A stretch of DNA of 39,227 nt, from assembly GCA_021846505.1 (NCBI GenBank), contig JAJZWV010000037.1:1-39227 (forward strand). The letters run 5' to 3'. The notes beneath the pieces were generated by a model that was not told where the DNA came from, did no database searches, and saw only the letters and a program-made list of their open reading frames with translations. The DNA is from Bacillota bacterium. GTDB taxonomy: Bacteria; Bacillota; Sulfobacillia; Sulfobacillales; JAIMBI01. The stretch's first letter is position 1. Each line of letters starts with the position of its first letter. Below, piece by piece: positions 6,566 to 18,313 of this stretch. The position numbers and the translations under genes are program-made.

Positions 6566-7363
6566 GTGTGGGCCTGGTCTTCTCCATGGGTCTGGGTAAT
6601 CGTGGCGGCAGCCGTGACTGCCGCCTATGCTGTAGGGGTGGAGCCGTTTTGGATCCGCCCCGTGCAGTATCGTGTGTGGCACCCTAGCTGGCCGGCCGAA
6701 TTGGCTGGCTTTACGATTGTCCAGCTGTCGGATCTGCATGGGCGCGTGCAGGTGTTTCGGATGGCTCCGGTCCAGCAGTGGCTGGCCGAGGCGGACCTGA
6801 TTGCGATTACCGGGGACCTCTACAGCCCGATGCGGCCGCGCCGGCGGCTGGCTGCGGAGCTCGGCCGGCTGCCGGCGGCGCGCACCCGGTATGTGTCGGG
6901 CAATCACGACTATCGGAGGGGCGTGCTCCACATGGGCCCGTGGGCGCCGCCGCCGGCGGTGCTGCTGGACAATCGCGTGGAGCGGTACACCAGCCCCGCG
7001 GGCCGCCGCCTGCTGCTGGGCGGCGTGGCGGACTTGGGGCGCGGCCGCCCAGAGTGGGCCCAGGTGCCCGACGGCGAGCCGGCCGTGCTGCTGAGCCATC
7101 GGCCCGATGCCATCCTGGCCCCCGGCGCGGCGCCCTATGGGCTAGTGCTGGCCGGCCACACTCACGGGGGGCAGGTGGCACTGCCGTGGCTCGGGCCGAT
7201 CCTGCGGCACAGCCGACTGGCGCGGGGCGAAACCGCGGGCTTGGTCCCCTGGCACGACGGCCGCACGCTGGTCGTGTCTCGCGGGCTGGGAACCTCCGAG
7301 CTGCCGGTCCGGCTTTTCTCGCGCCCGGAGGTGGTGCAGATTGTGCTGAGCCCGGCGGAGTAG
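6566..7363 (+). CDS. Metallophosphoesterase, YkuE-like, membrane anchored
   Basis: A 265-residue calcineurin-like phosphoesterase. An N-terminal hydrophobic segment (about residues 5-22) is a likely signal anchor placing the enzyme outside the membrane. The metal-binding motifs follow in order: QLSDLHG, AITGDLY, SGNHDYR, LLSHRPD and LAGHTHGGQ. The arrangement matches the YkuE/YaeI group of phosphodiesterases. In this group, lipid-linked or cell-wall phosphate substrates have been proposed. The GTG start at 6566 is 6 bases after ndk, implying co-transcription. The exact substrate is unknown. Confidence 0.85.
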   Translation: MWAWSSPWVWVIVAAAVTAAYAVGVEPFWIRPVQYRVWHPSWPAELAGFTIVQLSDLHGRVQVFRMAPVQQWLAEADLIAITGDLYSPMRPRRRLAAELGRLPAARTRYVSGNHDYRRGVLHMGPWAPPPAVLLDNRVERYTSPAGRRLLLGGVADLGRGRPEWAQVPDGEPAVLLSHRPDAILAPGAAPYGLVLAGHTHGGQVALPWLGPILRHSRLARGETAGLVPWHDGRTLVVSRGLGTSELPVRLFSRPEVVQIVLSPAE

Positions 7364-16536: not shown

Positions 16537-16785
16537 GTGAAAGCGGCGAAGCCAAAGACAAGGGGCCAGCGGCGCCGGGTCGCCCGCCGCCTGCCGGCCC
16601 AGCACGCGGGCGGCGAACTCACGGCCTTGAAGTTCGAAGTCGCGAAAGACCTGGGCCTCGAAGAGGATATCGCCCACCGAGGCTTTGCCAACATGACCAC
16701 GCGGGACGTGGGCCAAATCGGTGGGCAGATGGTGCGCCGCCTGGTGGCGCGGGGGAAGCGGAGCCTCCGCCGGCGGGGCCGCTGA
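16537..16785 (+). CDS. Small acid-soluble spore protein, alpha/beta type
   Basis: An 82-residue DNA-binding spore protein. The core LTALKFEVAKDLGLEEDI matches the first conserved helix, including the FEVA segment where the germination protease GPR cuts (LEIASE in Bacillus). ANMTTRDVGQIGGQMVRRLV is the second conserved helix region with the invariant GG. Alpha/beta SASPs coat forespore DNA and protect it from UV and heat. It is longer than the usual 60-70 residues, with an Arg/Lys-rich N terminus and an RRRGR tail, perhaps strengthening DNA contact. The GTG at 16537 follows GAAAGGG by 9 bases. It lies 23 bases after surE. It is strong evidence that the organism sporulates. Confidence 0.9.
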   Translation: MKAAKPKTRGQRRRVARRLPAQHAGGELTALKFEVAKDLGLEEDIAHRGFANMTTRDVGQIGGQMVRRLVARGKRSLRRRGR

Positions 16786-16849: not shown

Positions 16850-17197
16850 ATGAGCCTCAGGGCGGTGGGATATGGCATTGGTGCGGGTACGCTGCTGGGA
16901 GCGTTCGCGGCACTCCTGCTAGCGGTGGTCTCTGACCGGGCGCCCGTGTCAGAGGGGATCCTGCGGCTGGCGCTCACCGTCGGCAGTTTGGTGGCGTGTG
17001 TCGGAGCGGGGTGGGTTGCCGGGCGCACCGCAGAGTCAGGCGGCGGCGTGCACGGGGCACTCGCGGGGCTGGGTTTGGCAGCAGGCGGCCGTGCGCTGGC
17101 GGCGGCCACCGGGCTGGCGGCAGGGGCACTCCCGATCTCCCTGGCGCTGGGCGTCGTCCTAGGCGCTGCGGGCGGTGTGTGGGCGGCCATGCAATAG
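16850..17197 (+). CDS. Small integral membrane protein, TIGR04086-like
   Basis: A 115-residue, highly hydrophobic protein with four probable transmembrane segments (about residues 8-30, 37-61, 68-86 and 90-114). They are rich in Gly and Ala (GYGIGAGTLLGAFAALLLA; ALTVGSLVACVGAGWVAG). The pattern resembles the YrzE/TIGR04086 family of small membrane proteins found in spore formers, whose function is unknown. The ATG at 16850 is preceded by a GGGGGG stretch. It lies between the two SASP genes and ends at a GC-rich hairpin. Confidence 0.65.
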   Translation: MSLRAVGYGIGAGTLLGAFAALLLAVVSDRAPVSEGILRLALTVGSLVACVGAGWVAGRTAESGGGVHGALAGLGLAAGGRALAAATGLAAGALPISLALGVVLGAAGGVWAAMQ

Positions 17198-17227: not shown

Positions 17228-17445
17228 CTATTCGGAGGCATTGCGGTGGGCCAGCGACTCTTCGGCTTGGCGGATCAACACCTTCACCATGTTGCCGCCG
17301 ATGCGGCGAAGTCGCGAGTCGGCTGGTCCGCCCAACCTTTGGCATCAATATCGCCAAGCAGCGCGAGCTCCTCGGCGACTTCGTACTTAAATCGATCGCG
17401 CACTGGGTCCGGCAGCAACGTCTGTCCCCCGCTCCCCGGGGCCAC
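17228..17445 (-). pseudogene. Second alpha/beta-type SASP gene with a -1 frameshift
   Basis: On the minus strand a GTG at 17445, with GGAGGTG 5-6 bases upstream, opens a frame whose product continues TLLPDPVRDRFKYEVAEEL and KGWADQPTRD. This matches the first conserved half of alpha/beta SASPs. The second half, RRIGGNMVKVLIRQAEESL, continues immediately but in the next frame and ends at TAG 17228. The two halves join if one base is restored near 17309-17312. The span of 218 bases is one short of 73 codons. Either the gene is freshly inactivated or the read has a one-base error. The whole protein would be 72 residues, normal for the family. It converges with the gene at 16850. Confidence 0.8.
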
Positions 17446-17684
17446 GTTGACCACCTCCCCGCAGTGTGTGCCAGCGAGCGTCTCACCGCATTCACAGTGT
17501 GGGCAGTTGGGGTGTCTGCACGACCCGCTCGTGCATCGGGTTGCTGGATCGCGGGCCAGCGCAACGGTGGACGCTGTGCTGGAAAACCTCGATAATGGCG
17601 GGGGTGCGGCGCAGATTGGCTGCCAGTCGGCGGCGGACCGGCTGATGCGGCGGCCTGCGCCCAGTGTTCCCAGGAGGTGGCTTC
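17446..17684. other. Intergenic region between divergent genes
   Basis: About 240 bases separate the minus-strand SASP start from the + strand DUF4264-like gene. No confident promoter box stands out. One minus-strand frame in line with the SASP gene is unusually rich in Cys (NCPHCECGE then THCG, near 17500-17455), but it lacks a clear start codon and ribosome site. It is recorded as a curiosity only. Confidence 0.5.
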
Positions 17685-17882
17685 ATGACCGAAGTGCGGG
17701 CGGACCATGATGCTCTGCGTGTGTTAGGCGCTCGCTGGTTTGAAAACTTTGAGCCGAGCCACGTGGTCACGTTTTTGAATCAGGTGCTGTCAGAACGCGG
17801 GCTGGCCTTTGGCGTGCGGCTGCGCGACGAGGGGCACGAGCTCACCGTATATGACAGCGCGCCCGGCGAGGGTCCTCGTTGA
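17685..17882 (+). CDS. Small protein, DUF4264 (YpmA)-like
   Basis: A 65-residue protein. The segment SHVVTFLNQVLSERGLAFGV, followed by a strand ending LTVYDS, closely follows the pattern of the Bacillus YpmA/DUF4264 family, in which VVDFLN is followed by L-x-x-x-GLMFGL. The family's function is unknown. The ATG at 17685 follows AGGAGGTGG with a short spacer. Its stop overlaps the NUDIX gene's TTG start. The N-terminal 20 residues (including LRVLGARWFENF) are not conserved as far as I can tell. Confidence 0.65.
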   Translation: MTEVRADHDALRVLGARWFENFEPSHVVTFLNQVLSERGLAFGVRLRDEGHELTVYDSAPGEGPR

Positions 17883-18313
17883 GAGATCGGCGGCCGGAGG
17901 TGGGGATTGCCGCCATTGTGCGGGATGGCCAGGGACGTGTGCTGCTGGTCAAGCGGGGGCAGGCGCCGTATCCCCACGCCTGGGCCTTTCCCGGCGGCCA
18001 CCTGGAGTGGGGTGAAAGCGTAGCGGCGGGCGCGGTGCGTGAGGTGGCTGAAGAAACGGGCCTGGCCGTTGGCGCCTTGGGCCCACTGTTTGTGGGAGAG
18101 CTCCGCCCCTCGGCCTCCGCAGGCGGCCCGGATCGCCACTTCGTCATCGTGGACCTGGCTTGCGAGTGGAGCGGGGCGGGGCATCTAGCCGCCGGCAGCG
18201 ACGCCGCCGACGTGGCGTGGATGACACAGGGCGAGGTGGCGGCGGTTCCGCTCGCGCCCGGCATGGCAGAGTGCCTCGGTGATGCCGCAGTGCGCACGTT
18301 TTTGGGCTGGTAG
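17879..18313 (+). CDS. NUDIX hydrolase
   Basis: A 144-residue NUDIX protein. VGIAAIVRDGQGRVLLVKRG is the first strand pair. The NUDIX box starts GGHLEWGESVAAGAVREVAE and continues ETGL, with all the metal-binding Glu residues of the consensus G-x5-E-x7-REU-x-EE-x-GU. FPGGHLEWGE and the short length resemble the MutT/ADP-ribose pyrophosphatase and nucleotide-cleaning subgroups, but the substrate cannot be read. The TTG at 17879 overlaps the upstream stop (TTGA), so it is translationally coupled. The lipoprotein gene starts 3 bases after its stop. Confidence 0.9.
   Translation: MRDRRPEVGIAAIVRDGQGRVLLVKRGQAPYPHAWAFPGGHLEWGESVAAGAVREVAEETGLAVGALGPLFVGELRPSASAGGPDRHFVIVDLACEWSGAGHLAAGSDAADVAWMTQGEVAAVPLAPGMAECLGDAAVRTFLGW

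Follow-up and report, generated by a model that had tools for sequence, protein, structure and literature searches.

Small acid-soluble spore proteins (SASPs) are forespore proteins that coat and protect DNA and are cut by GPR at germination, and the same role is predicted for the intact form of the gene considered here, SASP2. Intact SASP2 orthologues resemble the alpha/beta-type members of the family (PF00269; SspA-SspD, SspF and Ssp4), sharing with them the EVA protease site and the GGNMVK motif, while in the order Sulfobacillales SASP2 has a doubled IGGxIGG and a longer stretch between its helices than SASP1 (34 residues in SASP2 orthologues and 30 in SASP1 copies, measured between the EVA glutamate and the final GG). 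Both duplication and loss come easily to SASP genes (PMC3533761), and a disruption of sspA by a frameshift has been reported, in one clause, for Kyrpidia tusciae (PMC3533761). That case and the present one are alike in that a frameshift-disrupted SASP gene is accompanied by other, retained SASP copies; they differ in organism and locus, and possibly in subfamily (PMC3533761). Another parallel is the SASP2 loss in a genome of a sister genus (G004), which concerns the same locus with the same neighbours and likewise leaves no functional gene, but there no trace of the gene was found, as opposed to the two halves described below. In contrast to the PF00269 family, SASP2 is here split over two frames, and it is probably an ordinary pseudogene, a spare component lost recently, for which precedents exist.

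The features on which the comparison is based lie in the middle of the window, by which we mean the whole 39,227-nucleotide stretch of DNA that was analysed:

16537-16785, plus strand: SASP1, intact paralogue on the strand opposite to SASP2 (Pfam SASP, E 1.5e-13, 50.9 bits)
16850-17197, plus strand: TIGR04086/DUF3792-like membrane protein, conserved neighbour, with matches slightly below the curated cut-off
17228-17445, minus strand: SASP2, putative pseudogene, a disrupted alpha/beta-type small acid-soluble spore protein gene (intact syntenic orthologues; two halves in adjacent frames)
17228-17304, minus strand: SASP2 downstream half, shifted in frame relative to the upstream one (IGGNMVKVLIRQAEESL..., TAG stop; Pfam SASP and S. 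thermotolerans match)
17293-17312, minus strand: SASP2 lesion zone, 13 bases fewer than in orthologues (DNA alignment and comparison of deletion models)
17310-17445, minus strand: SASP2 upstream half, in the frame of the GTG start (RDRFKYEVA...KGWADQPTRDF), with the GPR-site-like EVA motif retained (profile and Pfam SASP)
17452-17460, minus strand: SASP2 ribosome-binding site GGGGAGGTG, conserved with the congeners (sequence and alignment)
17664-17882, plus strand: DUF4264 protein, the neighbour beyond SASP2, conserved and also kept in G004 and G005
17879-18313, plus strand: NUDIX hydrolase, conserved neighbour (E 4.5e-24)

Wherever it was checked in relatives, the gene order was dinG, surE, SASP1 (+), TIGR04086 (+), SASP2 (-), DUF4264 and NUDIX. 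SASP1 and SASP2 thus lie on opposite strands and face each other across the TIGR04086 gene, a pair that is conserved across the order and whose members differ in the stretch between the helices by four residues, a constant difference.

The upstream half of SASP2 begins with the GTG at 17445, ahead of which the ribosome site lies at about 17460-17452, and reads VAPGSGGQTLLPDPVRDRFKYEVAEELALLGDIDAKGWADQPTRDF before leaving the register of the family and running to a stop at 17284. The downstream half, RRIGGNMVKVLIRQAEESLAHRNASE, is one frame off the upstream one and ends with the TAG at 17230-17228, the two frames overlapping at 17335-17284. When the halves were searched separately, Pfam SASP matched the upstream one with E 0.036 (14.5 bits) and the downstream one with E 0.00026 (21.3 bits), so that neither alone reaches the cut-off of 22 bits, above which intact SASP2 orthologues score 50.9 and 50.8 bits against PF00269. 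A profile built from the three congeneric orthologues recognised the upstream half (17448-17305) with E 1.4e-18, and one single SASP of S. thermotolerans matched both halves, in two frames, with 77% identity over 22 residues in the downstream one. The germination protease site, of E-[IV]-A type, reads FKYEVA in the window and in most orthologues, and FKYEIA in the others. The orthologues have a single open frame of about 60-95 residues, the norm for SASPs, which the window, with its two frames, does not. The first-pass annotation, made from the sequence without database searches, had described both halves of an alpha/beta SASP on the minus strand, in adjacent frames and preceded by a ribosome site, together with an intact SASP gene nearby, and the Pfam and profile matches bear this out at 17445-17228, the intact gene being SASP1. 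No clear sigma-G promoter, and no convincing -35, could be recognized by eye in the alignment of the region upstream of SASP2, where a CACACTA common to the three congeners is altered in the window.

Each of the other three genomes in the genus (G001, G002 and G003), with 75-77% DNA identity at the locus, has an intact SASP2 frame of 79 residues counted from the upstream GTG, and G006, which represents a sister genus, likewise has an intact SASP2; in the four of them the orthologues are syntenic, with the same neighbours SASP1, TIGR04086, DUF4264 and NUDIX. The three-orthologue profile matched 35 of the 42 genomes of the order at E <=1.7e-26. The seven without a strong match comprise four less than 90% complete, the window's own genome (G000, upstream half only), G004 and G005. 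In G004 no trace of SASP2 was found between TIGR04086 and DUF4264 (locus L102, contig C37, about 6905-6995), and its absence is a clean, independent loss. In G005, of the same family and 97% complete (locus L105), no SASP, gpr or spoIIIAE was found, while spo0A was present; it is probably an asporogenous lineage next to spore-forming relatives. The motif [IV]GGxIGGNMV[KR]V was kept in each of the 33 SASP2 orthologues inspected (33/33), whose first unit may read VGG.

When the DNA is aligned with the four nearest orthologues, the window lacks 13 bases relative to every one of them, in the part coding for GRIGGxIGGNMVKV. This qualifies the proposal that one missing base would restore the gene: one base does join the two frames, and the deficit of a single base was found at about 17309-17310, within the 17309-17312 interval first indicated, but the joined protein would be without four residues that all the inspected orthologues keep. 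Likewise the relatives, whose locus had been suggested as a check, do carry an intact SASP frame there, with thirteen more bases and not one. On the alignment, the lesion is best explained by the loss of one 12-base IGGx repeat unit and of one further base. Across the aligned segment this model leaves 7-9 mismatches, while a single 13-base deletion results in 10-13; the latter fits more poorly and was rejected. The loss of the 12 bases alone stays in frame and yields the SASP1 spacing, hence the single base is the frame-breaking step. Gene conversion from the inverted SASP1 was set aside by inspection, the DNA of SASP1 and SASP2 being dissimilar around the break.

A frameshift in a draft genome may also be an error of base calling or assembly, in which case the true gene would be open, shortened by the in-frame 12-base unit only, and functional. 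The genome is indeed a draft (3.58 Mb, 96% complete) in 119 contigs, and the congener records are low-coverage MAGs (2.5-7.8x); moreover the frame is intact save for one base, both halves look constrained, and the 12-base variant by itself would have the spacing of SASP1. To set against this, the reading frames of S. thermotolerans (a complete genome, with 52% GC in the portion used) were used as queries for genes split over two frames: among the 35 frames matched in the window, amounting to 10,157 residues, SASP2 was the only one split. The same queries gave 0/36 split genes in G001, 0/42 in G002, 1/30 in G003 and 0/48 in G006 (1/156 in total). The split gene of G003 (locus L062, contig C10, 2544-3494), matched over two frames by one S. 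thermotolerans protein, is possibly a pseudogene or an assembly error. A count based on all the long frames of the congeners was discarded, as the shadow frames of DNA with 69% GC swamped it. The lack of any other split among the matched frames, across about 30 kb of compared coding sequence, indicates an assembly free of frameshifts in this stretch; the break site is not in a long homopolymer, and the neighbouring loss of a 12-base repeat is a real indel change at the site. Because SASP2 is the sole split, and because an error would not explain the loss of a repeat unit, a wrong base call appears unlikely, and less likely than a true lesion; the chance that the gene is in fact open is, in our judgement, small. 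Of the two outcomes that the first-pass annotation had left side by side, a gene just lost or a wrong base call, recent loss is therefore the one that fits better.

Programmed -1 ribosomal frameshifting, by which full-length SASP2 would still be made, could draw on the overlap of the frames and on the conservation of the downstream half. By inspection, however, the overlap (GACTTCGCCGCATCGGCGGCAACATGG) holds no slippery heptamer of the X XXY YYZ type, and no orthologue has the two-frame arrangement; with the slippery site absent, this explanation was rejected as very improbable. That the halves are a chance resemblance, or the shadow of overlapping frames on the plus strand, is scarcely credible: long shadow frames are common in the window, whose DNA has 69% GC, but the E-value of the upstream half, the conserved ribosome site and above all the intact syntenic orthologues, which already refute it, speak against such an origin.

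We therefore return to a true lesion, and consider it quite probable, from the comparison of sequences, that what remains at the locus is a pseudogene of recent origin, derived from a minor alpha/beta-type SASP already present in the ancestor of the order Sulfobacillales and lost through a repeat contraction plus one base, the loss being tolerated given the other SASPs. Within the genus the lineage of the window stands furthest apart, with a dS of about 1.0 to each congener across the other genes. For SASP2, dN was 0.17-0.22 and dS 0.6-1.1 in both halves, which corresponds to a dN/dS of about 0.2-0.4, a rough value for such short sequences. With dN well under dS in both halves, the frame seems to have been kept for most of the branch, and since both halves still look conserved the break would be late. 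Two near-invariant residues of the upstream half are changed (G14A and M27Q); being matched by like departures in several intact orthologues, they do not prove decay and can at best hint faintly at relaxed constraint. As to the mechanism, the IGGx-IGG tandem repeat would have lost one 12-base unit, probably when replication slipped between its two arms, which resemble each other, as suggested by the 12 bases making up one IGGx period. One more base would have been lost nearby, so that translation would end early and the DNA-binding second helix would not be made. This order of events (12-base and single-base step) is one that we infer, and the in-frame part of the deficit could be a harmless older variant. 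A broader idea, that the doubled IGGxIGG of SASP2 in Sulfobacillales is a contraction hotspot able to convert the longer SASP2 into the shorter SASP1 form, with slippage both diversifying and destroying SASP genes in the order, strikes us as improbable.

With two major SASP genes and SASP1 still present, the loss of SASP2 would have been tolerated, making it a presumably dispensable gene. The two strong SASP genes lie side by side near gpr (contig C14), and with these, SASP1, spo0A and spoIIIAE retained the SASP system is still in place. Judging from this gene content, spore DNA protection is not lost as a function, contrary to what a reading of the lesion as the loss of that protection would imply. 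The locus adds a further example of a minor SASP disappearing from a genome that retains its major ones, here in an order of acidophilic spore-formers whose SASPs have received very little study, and it documents the conserved SASP1/SASP2 pair flanking the TIGR04086 gene; its practical use is small, namely to alert annotators to the pseudogene at this site. Among the congeners, the draft genome G001 was observed to hold two gpr copies and extra SASP genes (contigs C174 and C19), arising either from duplication or from a mixed MAG bin.
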